Source of the DNA: Anaerolineae bacterium
Lineage (GTDB): Bacteria; Chloroflexota; Anaerolineae; Aggregatilineales; Phototrophicaceae
Reading direction: 5' to 3'
NCBI GenBank assembly: GCA_022824465.1
Contig: JAJDZV010000004.1
Coordinates: 558,001 to 622,000, forward strand
Length of the DNA stretch: 64,000 bases
A program made the position numbers and the translations under genes. This document shows positions 28,323 to 43,473 of the stretch, piece by piece. Position 1 is the first letter of the stretch; the number at the start of each line of letters is the position of its first letter. The notes beneath the pieces are model-generated. The model searched no databases. It saw nothing but the letters and a program-made list of their open reading frames with translations, and was not told the DNA's origin.

Positions 28323-29093
28323 CTACAGGATCTGGTCTAGAAACTCTTGCGTGCGTGGATGATGCACGATATCGGGGCTGAAGAAGTTCTCCGGCGGACC
28401 CTGCTCGACAATGCGCCCCATGTCCATGAAGATGACGCGGTCGGCTACTTCCCGCGCGAAGCCCATCTCGTGCGTGACGACCAGCATTGTCATGCCGGTG
28501 CGCGCCAACTCCTTCATGACGTCGAGCACTTCTTTGATCATTTCCGGGTCGAGCGCGGAGGTCGGTTCATCGAAGAGCATGATCTTCGGCTCCATCGCCA
28601 GGGCCCGGGCAATGGCGACACGCTGTTGCTGCCCGCCCGAGAGTTGGCCCGGGTACTTAAAGGCTTGCTCGGGGATTTCGACGCGCTCGAGCAGATCCAT
28701 CGCCCGTTGTTCCGCTCGGTCGCGCGCCCAATGGCGCACCTTCATAGGCGCCAGCGTGATATTGTCCATCACGGTCAGGTGCGGGAATAGGTTGAATTGC
28801 TGGAACACCATGCCGGTCTCGCGCCGGATCTCGGCGATATTCTGTACATCGTGGCTCAACTCAATGCCATTGACGATGATGGTTCCGTCTTGATGTTCTT
28901 CCAGCCGATTGATGCAGCGGATCAAGGTTGACTTGCCCGAACCGGACGGTCCAATGATCACCAATACTTCCTGCGGCATCACTTCCAGCGAGATATTGCG
29001 CAGCACATGAAAGTCGCCGAACCACTTGTTCATTTCGCGACAAGTAATTATCGGCTCGTCGCTCGCCATTACTTGGGTGCTGGTTTCTTGCAT
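28323..29093 (-). CDS. Polar amino-acid ABC transporter ATPase (AapP/GlnQ type)
   Basis: A 256-residue ATPase. The start at 29093 follows GGAGG by 6 nt; an upstream in-frame start would overlap the permease gene. Walker [11 protein letters not shown]-loop, signature [15 protein letters not shown], Walker [13 protein letters not shown] and the switch histidine (VVTHEMGFA) are all intact. It closes the operon begun by the binding-protein and permease genes upstream and energises uptake of polar amino acids. Confidence 0.95.
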
Positions 29094-29147
29094 GTGAACC
29101 TCCGCAAACTTATCCGCGCGATTTTTGCGCTTGAGCGAGCGGCGCAA

Positions 29148-32100
29148 TCACAGACGATCCGCGCGTATCGCGCCGGAGCCAGTCGCCTCGATTCGCCGGC
29201 TGATGTATGACATGATATAGCTGAAGACGAAATAGATGATGGCGGCGTACAGAAAAGTCTCTTGGCGCCGTTGCAGGAATTCCGGCTGCGCGACCACGCG
29301 GTTGGCGATGCCGGTGATATCCGCCAGGCCGATGATAGAGACCAGCGACGTATCCTTGAAGAGCGAGATGAACTGCCCCACCAGCGCGGGAATGACTGCG
29401 CGCAAAGCCTGCGGCAGCAAGATGTGGAGCGTGGTCTGCCAAGTGGACAAGCCAACGGCAAGCGCCGCTTCGGTCTGACCATGATCAAGCGATTGCAAGC
29501 CGCCGCGGACATTCTCCGCCAGGTAGGCCGCGCTGAACATGGTGATGGCGACCCAGGCGCGCACCGCGTTCTCGATGGTCGCAAGCGTAGGATCGACCAG
29601 CGGCACCAACAGCACCGCCAAGAAGAGAAGCGTAATGAGCGGCACGCCGCGCACCACTTCAATATAGAGAATGCAGGCGTACTTGACAGCCGGCATATTG
29701 CTGCGCCGTCCGAGCGCCAGCGCCAAGCCTATCGGGAAGGAAGCGCCGATGCCCAAGACAGTCAGTTGCATCGTCAGCATCAGCCCGCCCCAAAGGCGCT
29801 TGTCCGATAGCGGCAGCAGGTCATCGGGCGATGTTTGCAGCATGCCGCGCGCGTCCAACCCGGCGACCAGACTGGGCAGGAACAAAAGCACGGCGAGCCA
29901 AATAGCGAATGCGGCAAGCAAGCCCTCCCGGGCGAAACGATGGAAGAGCGCGCCGCCCTTGAGGTCTTCTGCCTTGCGGGCGTCTTCCTGCGCGCCTTCG
30001 CCACGCTTGAAAGCCAGAGCGCCAACAATCAGCCAGACGATGAAGTAAATCGTCGACCAGCGATCGACCAGCGTCCAACTCTGCATCCACAGGTAAGTCA
30101 GCAACAGTATTCCCACAATGATCCGATTGGAACTCCAGCGAGTCGCGCCGCTGAAGAACATCCAGCCGAGCCAGAATGCGATCGCCAAGCCCGCCAAAAG
30201 CGGCAAGGAGTCGCCGCCGGCGGCCGCCAACGCGCTGCTATCAAGCAGGACGAAGAGAAAGGCGATGCTGGCGATGAGATAGCCGACGCGCTTCGCATTG
30301 GCGCCAATCGCGTCAGACAGCGCTGCGCCACGCGCGCCGGCAAAGACGCCGACGATGGCCGCCGTCAGCCAGATCAACAGCGCGCCGGTCGGATCGCTGT
30401 ACCACCCATCCCAGACAAGGTTTACGACTGCGGCTTGCGCCACTTGCGCGAAGAAACCCGCTACCAGCAGGGCATAACCCAAAGCGCCGCGGAAGTTCAA
30501 GCCGATGAAATACATGAGGAGCAGCCAGACCAAGCCGCCGGCGATGCTGCCGAGCGCCGCGCCGGAGAGGCCGCCGACTCCGGCCGCCATCATGAACATG
30601 GCAAAGGGAAATACGCCCCAGCCATATAGCAGCATTCTATTGAGCGATCCTTCGGCGCCCTCGCCGCGATTGGTGGTGTTGAGCCAGGTCTCTATGCGCC
30701 GCGCCAGCAGGACAACGCCAAAGGCGGCAGCCAGCCTGAGAATGACTGCCGGCGCGCCGACAATCGCGCTCGGTCCATCGAGGAGCATGAAATATGCCAG
30801 CAGAATGAGCAGAGGCGAAAGCGCCGCGGCCAGCACCGCCAAGCGATTCTCCCGACTGTTGAATACGGAGTTCTCGCCTAGCAAGTGTGCAAAGACGCGG
30901 CCAAGCAGATAACCCCATACGATTGTGATGAAGAATGGCAGCAGCAGCGCCTGAATCTGCTGGAAGAAGGGCGGTATGTAATGAACCAGATAGGTCTGCA
31001 CGTCGCGCAAGCCGCGGAACTGATTGTCGATCAACACAACAAATGGCGCGCTCCTGCCGTCGATCAGCGGGCGGCTATCGGTGACTACCAACTCATTATC
31101 GGTCAGCCGGACAAAGCGCGATTCGGTGGCGCTTAGGGTACGTTCGACGATAGGGTGTACGCCCGACACGGACAGGATGGCGATGCCTTCCTCTCCCTCG
31201 GCCGCGTCCTTGGTCAGGATGTACCAGCCGTCCGACGGAATCGTATAGGATACGGCATCGTCGACGCTGCGGAGTTCGCCGGCAGCCAGCGGTTCAAGCG
31301 TGTTGGCGTCGCGGATGGCCACGGACATGGCCGTGTTTCCTAGATCATATAGCTCGAGGACCGATTGCGGCGTCAGCAAGCGCACAAACATATCGCGGAG
31401 AAATTCGGCTTCTCGCGCGCTTGGCTCCAGCAGTTCCTCCTGGTCGTCGCTCTGGTCGGGCGCGCCGATGAAATCTTCCGAGAGCTGCACGACTAGAAGC
31501 TCGCCCAGGTCCTCCAATTGTTCGCTGGCGAGCGTCACCGTGGTCAAATGTATAATTGCTTCGCCCAGGTCGGCGGGAATGTTGTCGGCCATGGACAGGT
31601 TGGTGGCGCTGTCTTCCACCGCTTCCATGGCGTCCAGAATCGCGGACTCGGGCGGATCCAATCCCGTGGCGGCGCGCTCCAGCCGCTCCAGCCACAGGCG
31701 CAGTAAAGACACCTGGCTGTCGTCCGCCGTCAGACGTCCGCCGATATGCGCGACGTACTGGCTAGTCGAGGCGAGCATATCGTTGGTGCGCGTAAAGGTG
31801 CGAATGCCAAGGCGCGTGCGTTCTTCCAAGCCTTCGGTCAATTCGCCGCTGCGCATGCGGTCGAAGGTATCGCCGGTTGTGACCTGCTGGTCCAGACGAT
31901 TGCGCGCCGCATTCGCCAGCGCGTTGGAAGCTCGATCGGAGAAGCCGGAGAGATTGCTCAAGGTATGGATGTCGGCTGCTTCGTCGAGCGCCAAGCGAAT
32001 AGATACGGTCTCGCCTGCCTGCGCGATGAATGCCAGGTCACGCTGCGGCTTTATGGTCGAGGCGCGATCCACGACTTCAATATTGCCGGCTGTGAAAAAG

Positions 32101-32546
32101 GAGTTCGGCTGCGGCAAGGTCGCCTCGATGATCGGCTGCAGCAGCGCCAATGCTGTGAGCAAGCCAAGCGAGACGATAACGAGCATGCGCAGCGAACGCC
32201 GCACCCAGGCGGCCAGGCTGATGCCCGTCAGCAGCGCCGCGACAAGCACAGTCAGCGCCAGGCGCCATTCAAAGATAGGCTCATATGATTCCATCATGAA
32301 GAGGCGCTGATTGTTGATAATGGTGAACCAGTTTGCCGTGCCGATTGCCCAATCGAAGAAGCCAACGACCAGAATGATGATCAGCAGTGACGAAAGCAGG
32401 GTGACCGCGCCATCGGCCGGCGACCCAAATAGATTCTGTCGCATCCAGCCGACAAGCCCGACCTCCAGAGTCGGCGGCGGACGAGAGCCTTCGTCGTGAT
32501 GATGGATAATTGTTTTGGTCGCGTCAACGTTCGGCTGTTCCGACAT
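29148..32546 (-). CDS. Amino-acid ABC permease with very long N-terminal extension
   Basis: A 1132-residue membrane protein. Only the C-terminal part (about 895-1125) is the MetI-type permease domain of the polar amino-acid group (LTMQLTVLGIG; YIEVVRGVPLITLLFL; the EAA loop EAALAVGLSTWQTTLHILLPQA). Ahead of it lie a membrane segment, a large probably extracytoplasmic region (about 150-540), then many further helices. Typical AapM/BztC proteins have about 380-430 residues, so more than half of this protein is additional. It follows the other permease gene by 7 bp and should form the heterodimeric channel with it. Confidence 0.85.
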   Translation of the reverse strand: MSEQPNVDATKTIIHHHDEGSRPPPTLEVGLVGWMRQNLFGSPADGAVTLLSSLLIIILVVGFFDWAIGTANWFTIINNQRLFMMESYEPIFEWRLALTVLVAALLTGISLAAWVRRSLRMLVIVSLGLLTALALLQPIIEATLPQPNSFFTAGNIEVVDRASTIKPQRDLAFIAQAGETVSIRLALDEAADIHTLSNLSGFSDRASNALANAARNRLDQQVTTGDTFDRMRSGELTEGLEERTRLGIRTFTRTNDMLASTSQYVAHIGGRLTADDSQVSLLRLWLERLERAATGLDPPESAILDAMEAVEDSATNLSMADNIPADLGEAIIHLTTVTLASEQLEDLGELLVVQLSEDFIGAPDQSDDQEELLEPSAREAEFLRDMFVRLLTPQSVLELYDLGNTAMSVAIRDANTLEPLAAGELRSVDDAVSYTIPSDGWYILTKDAAEGEEGIAILSVSGVHPIVERTLSATESRFVRLTDNELVVTDSRPLIDGRSAPFVVLIDNQFRGLRDVQTYLVHYIPPFFQQIQALLLPFFITIVWGYLLGRVFAHLLGENSVFNSRENRLAVLAAALSPLLILLAYFMLLDGPSAIVGAPAVILRLAAAFGVVLLARRIETWLNTTNRGEGAEGSLNRMLLYGWGVFPFAMFMMAAGVGGLSGAALGSIAGGLVWLLLMYFIGLNFRGALGYALLVAGFFAQVAQAAVVNLVWDGWYSDPTGALLIWLTAAIVGVFAGARGAALSDAIGANAKRVGYLIASIAFLFVLLDSSALAAAGGDSLPLLAGLAIAFWLGWMFFSGATRWSSNRIIVGILLLTYLWMQSWTLVDRWSTIYFIVWLIVGALAFKRGEGAQEDARKAEDLKGGALFHRFAREGLLAAFAIWLAVLLFLPSLVAGLDARGMLQTSPDDLLPLSDKRLWGGLMLTMQLTVLGIGASFPIGLALALGRRSNMPAVKYACILYIEVVRGVPLITLLFLAVLLVPLVDPTLATIENAVRAWVAITMFSAAYLAENVRGGLQSLDHGQTEAALAVGLSTWQTTLHILLPQALRAVIPALVGQFISLFKDTSLVSIIGLADITGIANRVVAQPEFLQRRQETFLYAAIIYFVFSYIMSYISRRIEATGSGAIRADRL

Positions 32547-32553
32547 TGAGCCC

Positions 32554-34101
32554 CTACCTCGTTACCAATTGAAAACGTTGGTTGACCAAATTCATGACCA
32601 GCGAAATACACAGACTTATGAGCAGATAGGCGAGCAGGACCATCAAGATGCCAGTTACGGACTGGCCCGACTGGTTGATAATGGTGAATGTCACCTGATA
32701 GATATCGGTATAGGCGACGGCGATGGCCAGGCTGGAATTCTTCGACAAGTTCAGAAACTGGTTGCCAAGCGGCGGGATAATAACGCGCAGCGCTTGCGGC
32801 AAGACAACCAGCCGCAGCATGTCGCCGCGCGAAAGACCAAGCGCCCGCGACGCTTCGAGTTGGCCTTTGGGCACCGCCTGGATGCCCGCTCGCACGACTT
32901 CCGCGATGAATGAAGAGGTATAGATGACGACGCCAAGGAAGACCGCTAGATAAGACGGCGAAATCTCGATGCCGGTTTCCACGTTGCGGCCCCGGCGATC
33001 GAGGGTCGGCGGGCGGAATATGATGGGCTGACGGGTGTACTCCAATTCTTGTTCAATCGTCAGCCTGCCCGATTCAAAGGCGTCGTCGTATGACAAATCG
33101 ACGAACTCTTCATTCTCGTCGTCATAAACCGTGATAATCGACGGCGTGGGGCGCATGCCCATTATCAGCCAGCCAACAAGGATAAAGCCGACCAGGGCGA
33201 CCAGAGCGATGCGCGTCTTGGCGATCGGCTGGCCCGTCGTTTCGGTGATATAGCCGAAGTAGCGCCACAAGAGGATCGCCACGACGATGCCAATCACGAC
33301 GAAGACCATCCAGACGCCGAAGAGCGATGAGGGGATCAACTCAAAGATGGCGACGCCTTTGATGCTTATGTAGATGCCGGGCAAGAATTCAATCGGCGTG
33401 CCCGCGCCAATCAGGACAACGCCCAATAGATTGACCAGAACAACGATAGCGATGCCCACTTGCCGCACGCCCGTTCGCCAGGCGGGTCGGCGCAGGCTAT
33501 TGCTGTACTGCCATATCAAGGCGATGACAAGCAACGAAAACGCGTATTGCAGCAGCGGTAGACTGCGGATGCCTTCTTGCGGAAAGGCAATGGATTCTTG
33601 CTGCGGCGGCAGGGCGAATATCACGATGTAGAACCAGGCGAATATCTGCAGCAGGACTGGCGTATTGCGCAGAACCTCCACGTATGATCGCGAGAGCGTG
33701 CGCAGCAGGAAGTTGCGACTGAGCAAGAATATGCCGACCATGATGCCGATGACTGTGGTCGCCACCAAGCCCAGCAGCACAACGCGCAAGGTGTTGATGA
33801 AGCCGACGCGGAAGGCGTCAATATAACGGTCGCGCGAGGTGTAATCGCCGGAATCAGCTAGATCAAAGCCGGCGCGGTTTTGCAGGAATTCGAAATTTGG
33901 GGTCTGATTGGTTGCTTCAAGGGCGGAGTTTATGCGAAAGCCGAGGTTGTTCATCACCATGACGACAACCACGACGAAGATCAGTTGAGAGATGCCTTGC
34001 AGAATGCGGGCGTCGCGGAACACGGCCGGCAGCAGGTTTGCGCTCTGCCTGCTATCTCGCTGCATCGCCATAGATACGTTCCCGTATGCGTTGCTTGACA
34101 T
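32554..34101 (-). CDS. Polar amino-acid ABC transporter permease (AapQ/BztB type)
   Basis: A 515-residue permease. One N-terminal helix, the first part of the MetI domain (FRVGFINTLRVVLLG; RSYVEVLRNTPVLLQIF) and, after a long inserted region with further helices and an acidic extracytoplasmic loop (about 300-375), the EAA loop segment (EASRALGLSRGDMLRLVVLPQALRVIIPPLG). The split permease domain is normal for AapQ/BztB, though this version is longer than usual. It lies downstream of the binding-protein gene and its terminator. Confidence 0.88.
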   Translation of the reverse strand: MSSNAYGNVSMAMQRDSRQSANLLPAVFRDARILQGISQLIFVVVVVMVMNNLGFRINSALEATNQTPNFEFLQNRAGFDLADSGDYTSRDRYIDAFRVGFINTLRVVLLGLVATTVIGIMVGIFLLSRNFLLRTLSRSYVEVLRNTPVLLQIFAWFYIVIFALPPQQESIAFPQEGIRSLPLLQYAFSLLVIALIWQYSNSLRRPAWRTGVRQVGIAIVVLVNLLGVVLIGAGTPIEFLPGIYISIKGVAIFELIPSSLFGVWMVFVVIGIVVAILLWRYFGYITETTGQPIAKTRIALVALVGFILVGWLIMGMRPTPSIITVYDDENEEFVDLSYDDAFESGRLTIEQELEYTRQPIIFRPPTLDRRGRNVETGIEISPSYLAVFLGVVIYTSSFIAEVVRAGIQAVPKGQLEASRALGLSRGDMLRLVVLPQALRVIIPPLGNQFLNLSKNSSLAIAVAYTDIYQVTFTIINQSGQSVTGILMVLLAYLLISLCISLVMNLVNQRFQLVTR

Positions 34102-34228
34102 TCGTACGACTCAACCAATGAGACAATTGTAAGCAAAAGGCTGGCGGCTGGCAACTATTGCCTCGTCGGCGCGCTAGCCGCTTTGCTCTATTAGGAGGGA
34201 GGCGCCCGCACAAATGCGTTTCGCAAAC

Positions 34229-34263
34229 AAAAAAGGCTGCGCCATCGCGTGGATGACGCAGCC
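34229..34263 (-). terminator. Terminator between binding-protein and permease genes
   Basis: On the minus strand GGCTGCG-CAT pairs with ATG-CGCAGCC (34235-34263), followed by six T residues (34229-34234). It lies after the binding-protein stop codon and before the permease gene. Partial read-through here would give more binding protein than membrane components. Confidence 0.8.
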
Positions 34264-34295
34264 AGCAAATCTACACCTTTGAGGCGCGGCGCGGT

Positions 34296-35336
34296 CTAAC
34301 GGAATGGCGCCGCGTAGAGCAGACCGCCGTCGGTCCACAGGGCGTTGACGCCGCGTTCCAAACCAAAGATGGTATCGGGACCCAGCCAGCGATCATAGAT
34401 CTCGCCGTAGTTGCCCAGTTGCGTGATGACGTTCACCATGAAGTCATCGTCGATGCCGAGGTATTCGCCGGCGACGTTGTCGCCCAAGCCGAGCAAACGG
34501 CCGATGCCGGCATCGTCGCTATCCATGAAGTCGCCGATGTTCATGCTGTTGACGCCGAATTCCTCAGCTTGGACCAGACCCCAGACCGTCCAGCGGATGA
34601 TGTCGGCGAACTGCGCATCGCTTTGCGGGCTGACGGGACCAAGCGGCTCCTTGCTGATCACTTCGGGCAGAATGAAGTGCGCCGCGGGATCCGCCGAGGT
34701 GGCTTTGCGCGAGACGAGGCTGCTGACATCGCTGGTGAAGGCGTCGCAGGCGCCCGCTTCATAGGCGTCCATGATGGCGTCGAAATCGGGGAAGGTGTTG
34801 AGTTCCCAATCGGCGCCGAGGCGATCAGCCGTATCCGTGATGTTCAACTCAGTAGTCGTGCCGGCGGTGGCGCACATGGTGACGCTTTCCTCAGCCAGTT
34901 CAGCCAGGTTGCTAACGCCGAATTCAACCTTAACCATGATGCCCTGACCATCGTAGAAGGTCGTGGGACCGAAGGTGGCGCCCCATTCCGTGTCGCGGCT
35001 GAGCGTCCATGTGGTATTGCGGCTCAGCATGTCGATTTCACCGCTGGCTAGCGCTGTCGGGCGCTCGGCGGCAGTCAGCGGCCGGAACGCGATCGCGCCG
35101 GCGTCGCCAAGGATAGCGGCGGCGACCGCGCGGCAAATGTCTACGTCAAATCCTTCAAATTCGCCAGCGTCATTCTGTGTGCCGAAGCCCGGCAAGACCG
35201 AGTTCACGCCGCAGATGAGCTCGCCGCGATCCATGATGCGAGCCACGATGTGGCCATCGTCCTGAGCCGTCGTCAGAACCGCGCCAAGCGCGAGCATGGC
35301 GACCAGCAAAAGTGTTACCAGTACAGTGCGTTTCAT
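34296..35336 (-). CDS. Amino-acid ABC transporter substrate-binding protein (AapJ type)
   Basis: A 346-residue periplasmic-binding-protein family 3 member. The start at 35336 is fixed by AGGAGG and gives a signal peptide ending near LTTAQDD. The fold markers are RGELICGVNSVLPGFG, FEGFDVDICRAVAAAILGD and the AapJ-like segment LASGEIDMLSRNTTWTLSRD. It should capture a polar or general L-amino acid and deliver it to the two permeases downstream. It is the first gene of the transporter operon. Confidence 0.93.
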   Translation of the reverse strand: MKRTVLVTLLLVAMLALGAVLTTAQDDGHIVARIMDRGELICGVNSVLPGFGTQNDAGEFEGFDVDICRAVAAAILGDAGAIAFRPLTAAERPTALASGEIDMLSRNTTWTLSRDTEWGATFGPTTFYDGQGIMVKVEFGVSNLAELAEESVTMCATAGTTTELNITDTADRLGADWELNTFPDFDAIMDAYEAGACDAFTSDVSSLVSRKATSADPAAHFILPEVISKEPLGPVSPQSDAQFADIIRWTVWGLVQAEEFGVNSMNIGDFMDSDDAGIGRLLGLGDNVAGEYLGIDDDFMVNVITQLGNYGEIYDRWLGPDTIFGLERGVNALWTDGGLLYAAPFR

Positions 35337-35486
35337 TACTGCAATCCTCCTATAGAAACGTGGAACATATCGATACGAGGTGCGAGCGACGCGCTTTAGC
35401 GGACGGTTTTCCCGCACTCTGTCTCTTTAGTAGTATAGTCGAAGTTTGGGCTAATGTAAACTCTGTCGCGGCCAATCCCGAAAGCA

Positions 35487-35519
35487 AAACCGCCCGGCGG
35501 GATACCCTGCCAGAGCGGT
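35487..35519 (-). terminator. Terminator of the SelW-like gene
   Basis: On the minus strand ACCGC (35515-35519) pairs with GCGGT at the end of a hairpin containing inner GGG/CCC pairs, followed by TTTGCTTT (about 35480-35487). It lies about 50 bp after the stop codon at 35566. Confidence 0.5.
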
Positions 35520-35565
35520 CGCTTGCTTACCGGAAGCTGTGGTTGTCAGCGCGCGGCTGCGCCGA

Positions 35566-35859
35566 TTATTTGGCCGCCAACTCAAAATCGGCTGGGCGCA
35601 CCGTGTCCAGAACTTTCTGAATGCCGGCTCTCACCTCGCCCGGTTCGGCATGCCTGCCAACGGCTTTCTTCGAGAAGACGAGCTCGCCATTGACCAAGAC
35701 ATCAAAGACGCCGCCCGTGCTGGGAATAAGCTTCCAACTGCTGATGAAATACTCAATCTCACGTTCGTTCAGAATTTCGTCCGTCAAACTGACGGCATTA
35801 GGTTGGTGTCCTCAAGTAGCGCAATACTTGATGACGATATCCATTCCGCCTTCTTGCAT
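35566..35859 (-). CDS. SelW/Rdx-family selenoprotein (in-frame TGA = Sec)
   Basis: Read from ATG 35859 (or ATG 35844), the frame begins MQEGGMDIVIKYCAT, meets TGA at 35812-35814, then continues GHQPNAVSLTDEILNER without a stop to 35566. The downstream part (FISSWKLIPSTGGVFDVLV; ELVFSKKAVGRHAEPGEV) is a clear Rdx/SelW-type thioredoxin-like domain. The TGA falls exactly at the second position of the family CxxC/CxxU redox motif (C-A-T-U). Twenty-two nt after the TGA lies the loop of a hairpin with a perfect 6-bp stem and a G as first loop base, within the range of bacterial SECIS elements. A strong promoter and terminator flank it. The full product is 97 residues. A nonsense mutation is the alternative. 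Confidence 0.82.
35781..35795 (-). promoter_or_regulatory. SECIS-like hairpin downstream of the Sec codon
   Basis: On the coding strand CCGTCA-GTT-TGACGG forms a 6-bp perfect stem with a 3-nt loop beginning with G. The distance from the TGA to the loop is 22 nt. Bacterial SECIS elements are hairpins just downstream of the UGA, within the coding region, with a G near the start of the apical loop. Confidence 0.55.
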
Positions 35860-35898
35860 GATGAAGCCTTTCCAATCGCTAAGGGATACGATGCCCAC

Positions 35899-35926
35899 AT
35901 TATAACCAAGGGCGGGAAATTGGCAA
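35899..35926 (-). promoter_or_regulatory. Promoter of the SelW-like gene
   Basis: On the minus strand TTGCCA (35921-35926), a 16-bp spacer and a perfect TATAAT (35899-35904) lie 40 bp before the ATG at 35859; GGAAAGG (about 35865-35871) is the ribosome site. Confidence 0.6.
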
Positions 35927-36077: not shown

Positions 36078-36884
36078 ATGAATGCGAAACGATGCTGGAC
36101 TGCTGCGATTGCGCTCGGCATATTCTGCATTGCGCTGCTGGCTTCGTCTGCGCAGGCGCAAGAATTCCGCGGCTTTACTTGCGAAGGCCTGCTTGAGCAT
36201 ATTCGCGCCGGCGGCCACGTAATATTTGAAGAAACCAATAGGTGGTACTACAGCCATTGCCCGAGAGTAGCTGAAGACGACGAAGATGCGAACGCGCCAG
36301 CGAACAGGCGCACAGTAGCGACCTGCCCCCAATTGCCGCCCAGGGTCACTGTGTTTGGCTATGTCGAAGGCACTCAATGCCGAATGGTGGGCGCGGCCGG
36401 CGTCGGGCGCGAGGATTTGGTAGAACGCGGCGTAATCGACGCGGTGGATATATGGAGCTACGTCAATGGCGGGCTGGAAGTCTGCTTCCGCAACCGCGGC
36501 GCGCTAGTCTTCCTGGATGCCGCGTACGCGCCGCGCATGCTCATGGAACTGGCGGCTTTTCAGCGCGATGGCATGACTTGCGGCAAGATCGACCGGGCCG
36601 GCACGGTGGTCCTCCTCCACGAATCGGCGCCAAATCCTGCCCCGCCAGCGGATGACGCCTTGCCCGTCTATGATGCCATCCCGACGAGCAGTTGCCTGGT
36701 CAAACTGGAGGAGACGCTCTTCCTGCGCGCCGAGCCGGCCGGCGAGATCATCGGCTTGGCCTGGCTCTATTCTGAAGTGCCGGTCTATGAAATCAGCGGC
36801 GACTGGTACAAGACTGAATTCGAGGGAAAGACCGGCTACATCAGCAGCCGCTACAGCCGGGTGGTTTACGGCGGTTGCGTCTGA
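36078..36884 (+). CDS. Secreted SH3-domain protein, tandem paralogue 1
   Basis: A 268-residue exported protein. Signal peptide about 1-27 (cleaved after AQAQ). A short N-terminal region with two cysteines (TCEGLL, SHCPRV) is followed by an acidic linker. Residues about 83-178 are the shared module (TCPQLPPRVTVFGYV; AVDIWSYVNGGLEVCF; VFLDAAYAPR; TCGKIDRAGTVVLL). A Pro/Ala-rich linker leads to a C-terminal SH3 domain (about 200-268; LFLRAEPAGEIIGLAWL, KTGYIS). Cysteines begin and end the SH3 domain and may form a disulfide. The ribosome site is GGAAGGAG. Function unknown; a surface or cell-wall binding role is inference. Confidence 0.82.
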   Translation: MNAKRCWTAAIALGIFCIALLASSAQAQEFRGFTCEGLLEHIRAGGHVIFEETNRWYYSHCPRVAEDDEDANAPANRRTVATCPQLPPRVTVFGYVEGTQCRMVGAAGVGREDLVERGVIDAVDIWSYVNGGLEVCFRNRGALVFLDAAYAPRMLMELAAFQRDGMTCGKIDRAGTVVLLHESAPNPAPPADDALPVYDAIPTSSCLVKLEETLFLRAEPAGEIIGLAWLYSEVPVYEISGDWYKTEFEGKTGYISSRYSRVVYGGCV

Positions 36885-36908
36885 GCCCGGCGCAGCGCCC
36901 CTTCCGGC

Positions 36909-36946
36909 AACGCCCCGTCTTGAACAATCGAGGCGGGGCGTTTTGA
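36909..36946 (+). terminator. Terminator of paralogue 1
   Basis: ACGCCCCG (36910-36917) pairs with CGGGGCGT (36934-36941), followed by TTTTGATTT. Confidence 0.8.
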
Positions 36947-37016
36947 TTTCCCGCCGCAGAAACCTACGGCGAGCCTACGGATAATGCGCGCATCGCCTGC
37001 TATCGAAGCATATCGC

Positions 37017-37044
37017 TTGACTGGCGTATCGCCGCGTCTAGACT
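37017..37044 (+). promoter_or_regulatory. Promoter of secreted SH3 paralogue 2
   Basis: TTGACT (37017-37022), 16 bp, TAGACT (37039-37044), 35 bp before the ATG at 37079, with GAAGGAG as ribosome site. Confidence 0.55.
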
Positions 37045-37078
37045 TGGGGCACAAGAAATACAACGAAGGAGCAGCACT

Positions 37079-37867
37079 ATGAAAAACAAGCGAATGGGAA
37101 TGGTAGCGCTGCTGGTATGCTGGCTCTGCCTTCTGGCGGCAGCCCCGGCGACGCAAGCCCAGTACACTTGCGAGTATATGCTGAACGAGAATTATCTGAG
37201 CTCCACTGAGTGGAGTTGGTATAAAGCCAACTGCATGAACTTGCAGGAAGACGAGGACGAAGAAGAACCAGAAGTATATCGGCCGCCGGATGTCACTTGC
37301 CCGCACCTGCCGACGCGGGTCGCCGTCTTTGGCTTTGTCGTAAACACTCAGTGCCAGATGGTCGGCGAGGTTGTCATCGGGAAGCATCCGGAGCTGATGC
37401 AGCGCGGCTTCATTGACGCGGTCGATATCTGGAGCTACGTCAATGGCGGGCTTGAAGTCTGTTTCCGCAATGAAGGTTGGCCGGTCTTCCTGGATGCCGC
37501 CTACGCGCCGCGCATCGCCATGGAGCTGCAACCTACTTACCGTGACGGCATGACTTGCGGTGAGATAGACGGCGCCGGCACGGTGGTCCTGCTCGCCTCA
37601 GGCCCCGCCTCGGCGCCAGTTACTCAGCCAACGCAATACACCCTGCCACTATTTGACGCGATCCCGCTGAGCGAATGCCTGATCAAACTAGAGGAGACGC
37701 TCTTCCTGCGCGCTGAGCCAGGCGGGGAGATCATCGGCTTGGTCTGGCTGAATTCCGAAGTCTTCGTCTCAGAGATCAGTGGCTACTGGTATAGGGTCGA
37801 GTTCGAGGGCAGGACCGGCTATATCAGCCGCTACTATCGGCGTGTGTTGCGCGGCGGTTGCGGCTGA
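37079..37867 (+). CDS. Secreted SH3-domain protein, tandem paralogue 2
   Basis: A 262-residue exported protein built as paralogue 1: signal peptide (about 1-23, cleaved after TQAQ), a cysteine-paired N-terminal segment (YTCEYML, ANCMNL), a strongly acidic linker (EDEDEEEPE), the shared module (about 74-172; VTCPHLPTRVAVFGFVV, TQCQMVGEVVIG, AVDIWSYVNGG, LDAAYAPR, TCGEIDGAG), a Pro/Thr linker and the C-terminal SH3 domain (LFLRAEPGGEIIGLVWLNSE; TGYISRYYRRVLRGGCG). One residue of the IDRAG signature is changed to IDGAG. It has its own promoter and terminator. Confidence 0.82.
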   Translation: MKNKRMGMVALLVCWLCLLAAAPATQAQYTCEYMLNENYLSSTEWSWYKANCMNLQEDEDEEEPEVYRPPDVTCPHLPTRVAVFGFVVNTQCQMVGEVVIGKHPELMQRGFIDAVDIWSYVNGGLEVCFRNEGWPVFLDAAYAPRIAMELQPTYRDGMTCGEIDGAGTVVLLASGPASAPVTQPTQYTLPLFDAIPLSECLIKLEETLFLRAEPGGEIIGLVWLNSEVFVSEISGYWYRVEFEGRTGYISRYYRRVLRGGCG

Positions 37868-37895
37868 CCTTAGCAAATCAAGTCAACCATGCAGA

Positions 37896-37933
37896 CGCCC
37901 GGTCTCAGTCGCGAGGCCGGGCGCTTTCTTTTG
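37896..37933 (+). terminator. Terminator of paralogue 2
   Basis: CGCCCGG (37896-37902) pairs with CCGGGCG (37917-37923), with inner CTC/GAG pairs, followed by CTTTCTTTT. Confidence 0.8.
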
Positions 37934-38002
37934 ACGCGGCAGGGGAACCCTACTGCAAGCCTTCGGGAAGACTGCGCCAGGCCTGTGGTCGAGGCAGACT
38001 GC

Positions 38003-38030
38003 TTGACGTGTGTATCGCCGGACATAAACT
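38003..38030 (+). promoter_or_regulatory. Promoter of secreted SH3 paralogue 3
   Basis: TTGACG (38003-38008), 16 bp, TAAACT (38025-38030), 37 bp before the ATG at 38067; the ribosome site is AGGAGG. Confidence 0.55.
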
Positions 38031-38066
38031 ATCGGCAGGGTCTGATCTGAATCAGGAGGCGTCACA

Positions 38067-39029
38067 ATGGCACATCATCACCACCCGCGCAATATCTGTA
38101 TCATTCTCTTGATTTCGCTGGCTGCGGCGCTGCCCGCGCTCGCGCAAGACGGGGTCAGAAATCTTCGCGCAACCAAGACCCGCAGCGACTCGATCTCAAT
38201 ACGATGGGACCCTTCGCCCGGGTCCTCCGGCTACGGCTATTATGTTTATATTGGCTCCGCGCGCGGCGACACCAACGACCCGGTTGGCGGGACGAACGGG
38301 ACATCGTACACCATCAAAGGGCTGCGTCCGGACACGACGTACCGCATTACAGTCGTTGTTGCCGGCAACCCGGGTTTGGGGCAAAGCGTGATCACTGTAC
38401 GTACGGCGGAGAAGCGTAAAGATAAAACACCAACGAGGTACATGCCCGCGCCGGTCACCTGCCCTCACTTGCCGCCCCGAGTCGTCGTCACGGGCCACGT
38501 CGTCAATACCCAATGTCAGATGGTCGGCGAAGTCGTCATCGCCTGGCAGCCCGCATTGATGAAGCGCGGCTTTATCGACGCGGTGGATGTGTGGAACTAC
38601 ATCAATGGCGGCCTGGAAGTCTGCTTCCATAGTCCAGGCTGGCTGGTCTTCCTGGATGCCGCCTATTCGCCGCGCATCGCCATGGAGCTGCAACCTACTT
38701 ACCGTGACGGCATGACCTGCGGCGAGATCGACCGCGCCGGCACGGTGGTGCTGCTGGAATCGCCGCCATCGTCAGACCCGGCGCCGCCGCCGGCGCAAGC
38801 GACTCTGCCCGTCTTCGAGTCCATCCCGCTGCATGATTGTCAGGTTAAGCTAGAGGAGACTCTCTTCCTGCGCTCCGAGCCGGCCGGCGAGATCATCGGC
38901 TTGGTTTGGCTGAATTCCGAGGTATCCGCCTTTGAGATTAACGGCTACTGGTACAAGGTCGAGTTCGAGGGACAGACGGGCTACATCAGCCGCTACTATC
39001 GGCGTGTGTTGCGCGGCGGCTGCGGCTGA
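38067..39029 (+). CDS. Secreted FN3 + novel module + SH3 protein, paralogue 3
   Basis: A 320-residue exported protein. It starts MAHHHHPRN, a natural four-histidine run ahead of the signal peptide hydrophobic core (cleaved after ALAQ near 27). The N-terminal cysteine segment of the other paralogues is replaced by a fibronectin type III domain (about 29-115; VRNLRATKTRSDSISIRWDP, TSYTIKGLRPDTTYRITVVV). The shared module follows (about 128-232; VTCPHLPPRVVVTGHVV, AVDVWNYINGG, LDAAYSPR, TCGEIDRAG). A Pro-rich linker and the SH3 domain complete it (LFLRSEPAGEIIGLVWLNSE, RVLRGGCG). FN3 domains mediate extracellular binding, which supports an adhesive or carbohydrate-surface role. Confidence 0.83.
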   Translation: MAHHHHPRNICIILLISLAAALPALAQDGVRNLRATKTRSDSISIRWDPSPGSSGYGYYVYIGSARGDTNDPVGGTNGTSYTIKGLRPDTTYRITVVVAGNPGLGQSVITVRTAEKRKDKTPTRYMPAPVTCPHLPPRVVVTGHVVNTQCQMVGEVVIAWQPALMKRGFIDAVDVWNYINGGLEVCFHSPGWLVFLDAAYSPRIAMELQPTYRDGMTCGEIDRAGTVVLLESPPSSDPAPPPAQATLPVFESIPLHDCQVKLEETLFLRSEPAGEIIGLVWLNSEVSAFEINGYWYKVEFEGQTGYISRYYRRVLRGGCG

Positions 39030-39056
39030 GCCCGGCGCAGCGCCAAGTTCCGCAAG

Positions 39057-39093
39057 GCTCCGCCCGGAGAGACTCGAGGCGGGGCTTTTCTTT
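39057..39093 (+). terminator. Terminator of paralogue 3
   Basis: GCTCCGCC (39057-39064) pairs with GGCGGGGC (39078-39085, one G-U pair), followed by TTTTCTTTG. Confidence 0.75.
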
Positions 39094-39165
39094 GAAGAGC
39101 GGCGAGGGAAACCTACCGCAAGCCTACGCACAATACGCGTCCGGTCTGCTATCTGTCAGACTTGC

Positions 39166-39193
39166 TTGACGCTCGTCTTCGCGCCCGTAGACT
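39166..39193 (+). promoter_or_regulatory. Promoter of secreted SH3 paralogue 4
   Basis: TTGACG (39166-39171), 16 bp, TAGACT (39188-39193), 37 bp before the ATG at 39230. Confidence 0.55.
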
Positions 39194-39229
39194 AGAGACA
39201 TAAGTAGTATTTGGCGAGGGGGGCGCGCA

Positions 39230-40018
39230 ATGAACTACTGGAGAATAGGCTTGGCGTCGCTGCTGGTTTGCTGGCTTTGCCTTCTGCTCGCAGGCCCGGC
39301 GGCGCAAGCGCAAGAGCCCATCTGTGAGCTGATGAGGGCCGACTATGACGTGCTGTACGAAAGCGATCGGCTATGGTTTGAAGAAAACTGCCGGAACGAG
39401 CAAGAAGACGACGACGAAGCAGCACTAGAATATCGGCCGCCAGATGTCACCTGCCCTCACCTGCCGGACCGTGTCGTCGTCACGGGCTATGTCATAAACA
39501 CGCAATGTCAGATGGTCGGCGAAGTCGTAATCGCCTGGCAGCCGCATTTGCATGAGCGCGGCTTCATTGATGCGGTCGATGTGTGGAGCGTCATGCCAGC
39601 AGGCGGCGTCGAAGTCTGCTTCCATTATCACGGCTGGCTGGTCTTCCTGGACGCCGCCTATGCGCCGCGCATGGTAACGGAGCTGGCGCATTTTCACCGC
39701 GATGGCATGACATGCGGCGTCATCAACCGCGCCGGCACGGTGGTCCTGCTGCGCCAGGCGCCCGCGCCAGTAACGCAGCCAGCGGAAGACAACTTGCCCC
39801 TGTTTGACGCGGTCCCCCTTAGCGGTTGCCTGATCAAACTGGTGGAGACGCTCTTCCTGCGCGCCGAGCCAGGCGGCGAGATCATCGGCTTGGTCTGGCT
39901 GAATTCCGAAGTCTCGGTCTCGGAGATCAACGGCTACTGGTACAAGGTCGAGTTTGAGGGGGTGACGGGTTATATCAGCCGCTATCACCGCAAAGTCTTG
40001 CGCGGCGGCTGCGGCTGA
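39230..40018 (+). CDS. Secreted SH3-domain protein, tandem paralogue 4
   Basis: A 262-residue exported protein with the same plan as paralogue 2: signal peptide (cleaved after AQAQ near 26), cysteine-paired N-terminal segment (PICELM, ENCRNE), acidic linker (EDDDEAALE), shared module (about 74-172; VTCPHLPDRVVVTGYVI, AVDVWSVMPAGGVEVCF, FLDAAYAPR, TCGVINRAG) and SH3 domain (LFLRAEPGGEIIGLVWLNSE; RYHRKVLRGGCG). In the module the usual YVNGGLEVCF is altered by a two-residue change (MPAGGVEVCF). No clear T-tailed terminator follows. Confidence 0.82.
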   Translation: MNYWRIGLASLLVCWLCLLLAGPAAQAQEPICELMRADYDVLYESDRLWFEENCRNEQEDDDEAALEYRPPDVTCPHLPDRVVVTGYVINTQCQMVGEVVIAWQPHLHERGFIDAVDVWSVMPAGGVEVCFHYHGWLVFLDAAYAPRMVTELAHFHRDGMTCGVINRAGTVVLLRQAPAPVTQPAEDNLPLFDAVPLSGCLIKLVETLFLRAEPGGEIIGLVWLNSEVSVSEINGYWYKVEFEGVTGYISRYHRKVLRGGCG

Positions 40019-40320: not shown

Positions 40321-43206
40321 TCACACCACGATATTCACTTTGGGATCGCTGCCATTCCGCCCCGGAATGAAGATCGTGCGCTTCGGCGCTTGCCCGCCCA
40401 GGCTGCGCTGAGCCGCCCCGCTGGCCAGTGCCATCTCCTGCGCCCGCTCCCGCTCAATATCAACCGCGACCGTGATCGTCTCACGCGGTTTGCCGTTGAT
40501 CATCACCACCAGATCGACCATTTCTTCACGCGCTTTATCGGCGTCATATTGGGGCCAGCGCTGCGTATGCACGCTGTATTCCCAGCCCAGCCGCGCCCAG
40601 ATTTCCTCGGCGATGTGGGGCGCAAAAGGCGCCAGCAATCTGATCACCTGGCTCATCACATCGCGCCACATCTCCGCGCCGATCGCGCCATCGCGCAAAG
40701 TCGCCTTGAACGAATTCTTGAACTTCATCTGCTCGGCGATAGCCGTGTTGAAGCTGAAGTCTTCCAAGCCGCGGTTGATAACGGCGATGGTCTGATGCAG
40801 TTTCCGCTCGATATCGCGCTCGGCAGCGGCGTCCCCCGGCGCAGTTGGCGCGCCGGCTGCGGCGATCTCCCAGATATCGTGCAGCCAGCCCTGCGGACCC
40901 TTGATGTTGTTCTCGTTCCAGGGACCGCCCTTTTGCCAATCGAAGTTGAACATCAGGTAACAGCGCACGACATCCGCGCCGTATTTCGCCACCAGTTCGT
41001 CCGGATTGACCACATTGCCCTTGCTCTTCGACATCCGCTGGATATCCAGGTGATGCCGCAGTTGATTGACATTGTTGGCGCCGGGGATATCGGAGATGAT
41101 AGTTTCAGCCTCGGGCAAGACCTCGACGAACTGCGTGACGCCTGCCATATTCACATGCAGCACATTCTCGGTACGGTGCGCGATCTCGCCAAAGACGCCA
41201 GCGAAACCGGCCGGCACTTGATTCCAGTCAACCACCTCAACCCGCTCCGCCAGCATCTTTCCACCAATAAGCCGACCGCTGCACAGAACAAAATCGCCCT
41301 GCCGTTCGGCGCCCAGGACTTGCCCCTGATTGCGCAGGACGATCATGGGTTCGTCGAAAGCGCCATCGGGATCGCGTCCATGGCGGCGCATCGCTTCGGC
41401 AGCGTCAGCGTAAACACCGATATCACGCAGTACCTTGTTGAAGAAGCGGGTGTAAAGCAGGTGCATCACGGCGTGCTCGGCGCCGCCGGTATAGACATCG
41501 ACCGGCAACCAGTACGCCGCTTCCTCCGCGTCGAAGGGCGCGGTATCCAGGTCGGGCGAAAGATAACGCAACTGATACCAGGATGAGCACATGAAGGTGT
41601 CCAGGGTATCGGTTTCGCGCCGCACTGTCTCGTTCACCTTGAAAAAGGGTTCGTGATAGGTCAGCGGGCTGCGACCGGTGGGCATGAAGTCGACGTCTTC
41701 CGGCAGCAAAACGGGCAAGTCTTCGTCTGGGACGGGGATGATTATGTCGCCGTCGTACATCATCGGAATGGGTCCGCCCCAATAACGCTGTCGGCTGATT
41801 AGCCAGTCGCGCAAGCGGTAGTTGACCGCTTCTTCGCCCTTGCCGGTTTCTTCCAGCCAGTCGATGACGCGGTTGATGGCCGGGTTGGCGCGGCCTTTGG
41901 CGAAGGTGCTGACGCTGCCGTCCATCGCATCGGAATTGACCATGACGCCGGGACCATCATATGCTTCGCTCATCGCGTCGGGCCTCAGCGGCTCGGTCAT
42001 GCCTTCCGGCTGAATGACAACCCGAATCGGCAAGGCCTGCGCGCGGGCAAATTCGAAGTCGCGCTGGTCGTGCGCCGGCACCGCCATAATCGCGCCGGTG
42101 CCATAGGTGATCATGACATAATCGGCGATCCAGATGGGAATCGCTTCATCGTTGACCGGATTGATGGCGTAGGCGCCGGTGAAGACGCCCGTCCGTTCCC
42201 GGTCCTCAACCATCCGCTCGATCTCCGTCTCCAGCGCAGTCTGCCGCACGTACGCCTCGACCGCTTCCCGCTGCTCCTCCGCCGTGATCACGTCAACCAG
42301 ATCATGCTCGGGCGCCAAGACCATGAAGGTCGCGCCCCAGAGTGTATCCGGTCGAGTGGTGTAGATTTCGATGGGATGGCCGCTGCTTTCGGTTGGGGAC
42401 GAGCCACCGGCTCGCCCGTACGCGCTCTCTGCATTTGAGGCGGCATCGTCGTTAGGCGCGCCCTCAGCATTTGAGGTAGCGTCGCCGCCACTCGCGCTTG
42501 CGGCGGTGCGGAAGGTCGCGCGGGCGCCTTCGCTCCGGCCGATCCAGTTGGTCTGCATGATCTTGATGGACTCGGGCCAGTCCATGCCATCAAAGTCCAG
42601 CAACTCGTCAGCGTAGTTGGTGATGGCGAAGAACCACTGTTCCATCATTTTGTGCGCGACCGGCTGGCCAGTGCGCTCGTCCTTGCCATCGATGACCTGC
42701 TCATTCGCCAGGACGGTTTGCAGCGACTCCGACCAGTTGACCAGCGCCGAGCCACGATAGGCGATGCCATGCTCATAGAAGCGCTTGAAAAACCACTCCG
42801 ACCACTTGTAATACTCCGGCGTGCAAGAGATGGCTTCGCGCTCCCAATCGAACATGGCGCCCATGCTGCGCAACTGCTCGCGCATCCGCTCGATATTGGC
42901 GTAGGTCCACTTCCAGGGGTGGATGTTGCGCGAGATAGCCGCTTGCTCAGCCGGCAAGCCAAAGGCGTCGAAACCCATAGGGAAGAGCACGTTGTAACCC
43001 TTCATGCGCATCCAACGGGCGCGGGCATCGGAGGGCGTCATGGCGAACCAGTGGCCGATGTGCAAATCGCCCGAGGGATAGGGCAGCATGGTCAAGGCGT
43101 AATGCTTGGGCTTGTCCCAATCCACCTTCGCCCGGTAGAGTTTGGTCTCGTCCCACCTTTGCTGCCATTTCACTTCGATCGCATGTGGTTGGTAAGTTTC
43201 AGTCAT
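40321..43206 (-). CDS. leuS: Leucyl-tRNA synthetase with in-frame insertion
   Basis: A 961-residue class Ia synthetase; the start at 43206 (MTETYQPHAIEVKWQQRW) fits the family better than an in-frame ATG nine codons upstream. The HIGH signature is HIGH at 49-52 (DLHIGHWF) and KMSKS is MSKSKG late in the chain; the CP1 editing domain (IEIYTTRPDTLWGATFMVLAPEH, HDQRDFEFA) is present. Just before the editing domain, at about residues 230-274, lies a Gly/Ser/Asn/Ala-rich insertion absent from normal LeuRS. Part of it is encoded by a palindromic repeat (42395-42421). It lies where two domains join and may be tolerated as a loop. Confidence 0.95.
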   Translation of the reverse strand: MTETYQPHAIEVKWQQRWDETKLYRAKVDWDKPKHYALTMLPYPSGDLHIGHWFAMTPSDARARWMRMKGYNVLFPMGFDAFGLPAEQAAISRNIHPWKWTYANIERMREQLRSMGAMFDWEREAISCTPEYYKWSEWFFKRFYEHGIAYRGSALVNWSESLQTVLANEQVIDGKDERTGQPVAHKMMEQWFFAITNYADELLDFDGMDWPESIKIMQTNWIGRSEGARATFRTAASASGGDATSNAEGAPNDDAASNAESAYGRAGGSSPTESSGHPIEIYTTRPDTLWGATFMVLAPEHDLVDVITAEEQREAVEAYVRQTALETEIERMVEDRERTGVFTGAYAINPVNDEAIPIWIADYVMITYGTGAIMAVPAHDQRDFEFARAQALPIRVVIQPEGMTEPLRPDAMSEAYDGPGVMVNSDAMDGSVSTFAKGRANPAINRVIDWLEETGKGEEAVNYRLRDWLISRQRYWGGPIPMMYDGDIIIPVPDEDLPVLLPEDVDFMPTGRSPLTYHEPFFKVNETVRRETDTLDTFMCSSWYQLRYLSPDLDTAPFDAEEAAYWLPVDVYTGGAEHAVMHLLYTRFFNKVLRDIGVYADAAEAMRRHGRDPDGAFDEPMIVLRNQGQVLGAERQGDFVLCSGRLIGGKMLAERVEVVDWNQVPAGFAGVFGEIAHRTENVLHVNMAGVTQFVEVLPEAETIISDIPGANNVNQLRHHLDIQRMSKSKGNVVNPDELVAKYGADVVRCYLMFNFDWQKGGPWNENNIKGPQGWLHDIWEIAAAGAPTAPGDAAAERDIERKLHQTIAVINRGLEDFSFNTAIAEQMKFKNSFKATLRDGAIGAEMWRDVMSQVIRLLAPFAPHIAEEIWARLGWEYSVHTQRWPQYDADKAREEMVDLVVMINGKPRETITVAVDIERERAQEMALASGAAQRSLGGQAPKRTIFIPGRNGSDPKVNIVV
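42395..42421 (+). repeat. Palindromic repeat copy inside leuS
   Basis: GGACGAGCC-ACC-GGCTCGCCCGTAC aligns with the intergenic palindromes at 43513 and 60524. It is in frame with leuS and encodes YGRAGGSSP of the insertion. Confidence 0.5.
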
Positions 43207-43473
43207 GTGCTTTCTCTGTTTCTCTTTCAGCAATGGATATGCAAAGAACGCGTCAGGCGCGCGCGATAAAAGACCTGATCATTCAATCGGGTTAGCAGTG
43301 CGAAGCTTGGCGCAAGTCGTGGGGCAAAACGAAGCAAACGGCCATCGCGGCCTACATAAGGAAAGAGCGGGTCACCCCGAAGCCCGAAGATGCTTTTGCT
43401 TTCATGTCATGCTTGCTTTCGTCTTGTGTGGCGCAGACCATAACATAGTGCGGAAAGTCTGTAAATGGCGGAT

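Follow-up and report, generated by a model that had tools for sequence, protein, structure and literature searches.

The question raised by this locus is whether a TGA codon in the frame of a SelW-like gene ends one protein or is translated within a longer one. The window analysed here is the whole stretch of 64,000 nucleotides from an Anaerolineae bacterium, in which a first-pass annotation had noticed a frame that passes through a TGA and runs into an Rdx/SelW domain. That annotation gave no strand; translation places the frame on the minus strand, where it reads downwards from position 35859 as MQEGGMDIVIKYCAT-TGA-GHQPNAV and continues, for 97 residues in all, to a TAA stop. The plus-strand translation of the same interval is unrelated to this frame. 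With TGA read as selenocysteine (U), the product is MQEGGMDIVIKYCATUGHQPNAVSLTDEILNEREIEYFISSWKLIPSTGGVFDVLVNGELVFSKKAVGRHAEPGEVRAGIQKVLDTVRPADFELAAK and contains the redox motif Cys13-A-T-U16 (CATU), which upholds the earlier placing of the TGA at the second redox Cys or Sec site of the family. We conclude, with a probability of about 96%, that this is a SelW/Rdx gene in which the tRNA-Sec, SelA, SelB and SelD of the same genome are predicted to decode the in-frame TGA as selenocysteine. The features on which this reading draws, together with the putative expression signals, are collected in Table 1.

Table 1. Features of the SelW locus and of the host selD (window positions, except where a locus is named)
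Feature	Position	Strand	Basis
SelW/Rdx-family coding sequence (CDS), TGA at codon 16, 97 residues plus stop TAA	35566..35859	-	Translation, Pfam Rdx, TIGR02174, fold match
In-frame TGA, codon 16, second position of CxxU, predicted Sec codon	35812..35814	-	Position; TGA conservation
SECIS-like stem-loop CCGUCA-GUU-UGACGG, within the CDS	35781..35795	-	Position; frozen synonymous codons; covariation; consensus fold
Sigma-70-type promoter-like site TTGCCA-16-TATAAT	35899..35926	-	11/12 consensus matches only
RBS-like GGAAAGG, 7 nt ahead of ATG at 35859	35867..35873	-	Position
Strong hairpin 3' of the stop codon, terminator-like, contains GGTTTTGC	35476..35535	-	Folding, -34.7 kcal/mol
selD in-frame TGA, then 26 nt, then hairpin GGCGCA-GGTCT-TGCGCC	L017:2380-2455	-	Read by eye

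The assignment to the SelW family is supported by profiles, sequence relatives and predicted structure. The whole frame scores 56.1 bits with Pfam Rdx (PF10262; cut-off 22.6) and 46.1 bits with TIGR02174 (cut-off 34.2), whereas the fragment that follows the TGA scores 33.0 bits with the former and 29.2 bits, below the cut-off, with the latter; no other Rdx match at E <= 0.001 was found in the genome. Among the NCBI models the best score was obtained with NF041051 (SelT/SelW/SelH family (seleno)protein, Campylobacter-type; 71.1 bits, E 6.7e-20), although the product is not an equivalog of that model because its score lies below the cut-off of 88. A structure predicted from 10 sequences (mean pLDDT 76.5) places the CxxU motif where the first strand (E6-13) ends, as in SelW/Rdx proteins, and has, by prediction, the thioredoxin-like SelW fold: its top PDB matches in a Foldseek search are SelW-related proteins, the best of them 2fa8_B (E 3.1e-8, rmsd 1.4). 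Bacterial SelW-related proteins are likewise the best sequence matches among solved structures, and in the two alignments inspected, those of the Cys-form relatives 2fa8 and 3dex, Cys is aligned with the TGA of the gene. Mouse selenoprotein W (2npb), a CxxU protein, belongs to the same fold family (Foldseek E 3.6e-4), and its sequence match is weak (E 0.02). The closest named records are metagenome-assembled genomes (MAGs) called Chloroflexi or Anaerolineae bacterium, with a SelW protein at most 92% identical; judging by isolate names, several of these MAGs presumably come from sponge or marine surveys.

The TGA is conserved among the relatives of the gene. A SelW gene was found in 36 of 61 genomes (the host's own and 60 relatives), and all 36 matches contain in-frame TGA, one codon in 35 of them and two in the remaining genome (G055). 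Codon 16 is TGA in all 30 distinct close sequences, which come from separate genomes of the same genus and include that of the window. When same-class genomes and six Gemmatimonadota loci are added to the close sequences, the set grows to 56 distinct sequences spanning two phyla; codon 16 is TGA in 55 of these, including all six Gemmatimonadota loci, and TGT in one (L075), so that the comparison with Cys homologues proposed at first pass turned up a Cys form at the very site of the TGA. Because Cys stood at this position in the queries, the searches were not biased towards TGA. Broader searches matched 179 of 396 genomes of the class and 186 of 400 of the phylum; hand counts among the 150 matches listed from each gave 148 with in-frame TGA and 2 without for the class, and 121 with and 29 without for the phylum. 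The two sets overlap in genomes, and within them the TGA was confirmed to lie at this site only for loci read individually. On both sides of the codon the close sequences have the marks of a translated frame: the 15 codons ahead of it keep the frame and the conserved residues (MQ.G..DIV.KYCAT), and past it pairwise differences number 4236, 2898 and 12021 at codon positions 1, 2 and 3, respectively.

Downstream of the TGA, the first-pass annotation had described a 6-bp hairpin with a G-first loop at a distance of 22 nt. The hairpin is present and the distance is correct for the loop, whereas the stem begins 16 nt past the TGA. Taken by itself this hairpin says little, because in the window sequence it folds no better than shuffled versions (z = -0.73) and a comparable hairpin follows 29 of 2036 TGA triplets when both strands and all frames of the window are counted; conservation is what decides. 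Single-sequence folding was accordingly discarded as a proof of a SECIS element and a comparative test was used instead. In the 30 close sequences, synonymous entropy averages 0.07 bits over codons 22-27, which lie over the hairpin, versus 0.88 bits for the other degenerate codons; a single codon is used in all 30 sequences at positions 22, 23, 24 and 26, with one exception each at positions 25 and 27. In the alignment of 55 TGA-bearing sequences (37 distinct rows), 98.6% of the cells are paired, and four of the six pairs have changed on both sides and are still paired (C-G to U-A, C-G to G-C, U-A to C-G, and C-G to G-C). None of 500 shuffles attained either the covariation score (0.292) or the proportion of paired cells; 6 of them attained the observed number of pairs changed on both sides, and 12 that of further pair types. 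When the partner was shifted by 1-3 columns, pairing fell to 18-52%, and an unguided consensus fold recovered the same helix. The first base of the loop is G in 55 of 55 TGA sequences.

The Cys homologue has no such hairpin at that place. In one TGA-bearing sequence of the same class (L109:1675-1713, minus strand) two of the six pairs are broken, which may reflect another SECIS or decay. The check for a SECIS element suggested at first pass thus yielded a hairpin conserved with compensatory changes, which show that it is kept as an RNA structure within the coding sequence. A conserved stem-loop directly after the UGA, inside the coding sequence and with a small apical loop bearing G, is what passages of PMC1088965 give for the bacterial SECIS, and the hairpin behaves like such an element; in eukaryotic SelW, by contrast, the same passages place the SECIS in the 3' untranslated region.

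The genome of the host encodes the machinery that selenocysteine insertion calls for. A tRNA-Sec with the anticodon TCA (UCA) scored 69.3 bits against a gathering threshold of 47, and profile scores for selA (557.8 bits), selB (329.7 bits) and selD (369.7 bits) each exceeded the cut-off, so that all four genes that the first-pass annotation had proposed to look for are present in the same genome. The host selD itself has one in-frame TGA (...ANCAG-TGA-ASK...), and the loop of the hairpin that follows, GGTCT, resembles those of the SelW hairpins of relatives (GGUCU, AGGUU, AGUUU). Among the 61 genomes, SelB scored over the cut-off in 36 of the 36 with the SelW gene versus 15 of the 25 without (Fisher p = 3.6e-5, ignoring relatedness); three genomes of the same genus (G005, G019 and G030) have SelB with the SelW gene unmatched, through an assembly gap or loss. 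A pattern scan for GGTCT after TGA across the host genome, intended to reveal more selenoproteins, produced 688 forward and 648 reverse hits versus 383 and 420 in a reversed control; it was dropped because it has no power against that control. Beside selD, the analysis identified no further host selenoproteins. Rfam at gathering thresholds detected one tRNA in the window and nothing else. The first-pass annotation had named a lack of Sec machinery, TGC or TGT in sister strains, and decay of the downstream domain as grounds for abandoning its reading; none of these was encountered.

In the protein database, this gene is represented by a predicted fragment of 73 residues (P0004, 99% identical), just as had been expected of ordinary start calling, which was to truncate the protein to about that length. 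A protein search returned 309 homologues, and most of those listed (97 of 120) are fragments of 67-76 residues that start past the Sec codon, the other 23 being 86-100 residues long. The fragments are devoid of both active-site residues of the CxxU motif, and any annotation or model built on them would lack the catalytic residues. The 23 full-length homologues have Cys at the site in 19 cases, W in three (P0002, P0007 and P0021) and R in one (P0003); the W-bearing proteins are probably gene calls made under a code in which TGA means Trp.

Several other readings of the TGA have to be weighed against selenocysteine. The UGA could be read through by a near-cognate tRNA with the help of the hairpin and without selenium; such read-through would also yield the full-length protein and is compatible with the position of the hairpin. 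Nevertheless, the codon stands where, according to passages of PMC1088965, SelW-family proteins have Sec or Cys, SelB accompanies the gene in all 36 genomes in which the gene was found, and the loops of the relatives look like that of selD, all of which makes selenium-free read-through very unlikely. The choice made by gene callers, an ordinary stop, would leave either a real product of 73 residues from the TTG at 35787 or a decaying remnant. The preponderance of short records among the listed homologues agrees with a stop, but the frame and the conserved residues are maintained in the 15 codons ahead of the TGA, and the fragment loses both active-site residues and much of its score with either family model (33.0 vs 56.1 and 29.2 vs 46.1 bits). 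Moreover, neutral decay should have produced other codons at a site that is TGA in 55 of 56 distinct sequences, and the covariation of the hairpin fits neither version, so we consider an ordinary stop or decay to be extremely unlikely.

If the genome used a table-4-like code, the site would be Trp, in line with the W found in the three listed homologues mentioned above. However, TGA otherwise acts as an ordinary stop: of 41 long open reading frames in the window, chosen by a mechanical rule (200 codons or more, overlapping little), 21 end in it, an argument against TGA being read as Trp in general. A tRNA-Sec with a TCA anticodon is present along with SelA, SelB and SelD, and Cys is the residue at this position in the solved structures 2fa8 and 3dex. 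A Trp code is therefore hardly conceivable. A sequencing or assembly error that turned a Cys codon into TGA could invoke the TGT of the single Cys homologue, but the 30 distinct genus sequences, obtained from separate genomes, and the six Gemmatimonadota loci all have TGA, which renders an error practically inconceivable.

Decoding of the UGA as selenocysteine, which the first-pass annotation had put forward, is supported by the machinery genes, the TGA in all 36 genomes found to carry the gene, the Cys homologue and the covarying hairpin. We infer such decoding, which is very likely, and also a selenium-containing product with a redox function. The steps can be proposed from the general biology of bacterial selenocysteine. 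SelD would supply selenophosphate, with which SelA would convert seryl-tRNA-Sec into selenocysteyl-tRNA-Sec; SelB would bring the latter to the ribosome and bind the hairpin 16 nt past the UGA, which would then be decoded as Sec instead of stop. The predicted product is a thioredoxin-like protein of 97 residues, whose Cys13-x-x-Sec16 pair could undergo reversible thiol/selenol redox chemistry.

SelW-like CxxU selenoproteins have been known in bacteria since 2005 at the latest and are abundant in marine samples. Passages of PMC1088965 list 48 SelW-like genes with CxxU and a bacterial SECIS, and a passage of PMC2398784 counts 427 Sec and 56 Cys forms. PMC1794560, in the passages concerned, reports 10 SelW-like selenoproteins and, for Chloroflexi, three selenoproteins whose families are unnamed there. 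A selenoprotein inventory has an entry for PF10262 with CxxU (PMC13188914), and related literature includes PMC9312934 and PMC4513850. With the bacterial SelW-like (SELENOW-like) selenoproteins of PF10262 the gene described here shares the Rdx domain, the CxxU motif and a bacterial SECIS right after the UGA, and it differs from them only in lineage and in details of the hairpin sequence. Biologically, the gene is a further example of an established arrangement in a protein family that is already known. Neither SelW nor Chloroflexi turned up in term searches of PMC12013277 and PMC5029168, and searches by title and abstract, in a collection that mostly leaves out subscription journals, listed no publication about a SelW selenoprotein from this genus or lineage of Chloroflexota. 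To a lineage without a SelW selenoprotein in the literature searched, our analysis adds a strongly supported predicted one. Passages of PMC1794560 also note that Sec-using organisms have few Cys homologues of SelW-like proteins, which was taken there to suggest that Sec is the original form. Tentatively, and as a possibility to which we give somewhat less than an even chance, Sec may be the ancestral state of SelW throughout Chloroflexota, maintained by selection, and may reach Gemmatimonadota with one homologous in-frame SECIS, much of the family being hidden as database fragments; SelW may then be among the proteins through which the Sec trait persists in these uncultured lineages.

The gene is flanked by putative expression signals. 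The promoter with TATAAT claimed at first pass was located as a consensus match (Table 1), and purine-rich stretches of the AAGG/GAGG type were seen by eye at about the place of the ribosome-binding site in the close homologues listed. The downstream terminator that had been claimed with it fared less evenly: folding revealed a strong hairpin, whereas a terminator pattern scan of the minus strand of the window detected none; a terminator downstream of the SelW gene is plausible. Further downstream, on the same strand, are the genes for the binding protein, two permeases and the ATPase of an ABC transporter of the amino-acid type (28323-35417, minus strand). Neighbourhoods were compared in 35 sources (34 loci and the window, with flanks of up to 3 kb), and the order of selW and transporter is conserved, because the cluster of the binding-protein open reading frame is present in 27 of the 35 and that of the permease in 25. 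Upstream of selW lies a leucyl-tRNA synthetase gene (40321-43233, minus strand), and a related upstream open reading frame was seen in 19 of the 35 sources. Between the two, divergent from selW, four similar open reading frames of 262-320 residues are arranged in tandem (36078-40018, plus strand). The two that were scanned each contain a bacterial SH3 domain, which in one is accompanied by a fibronectin type III domain; the products of the tandem frames look secreted.
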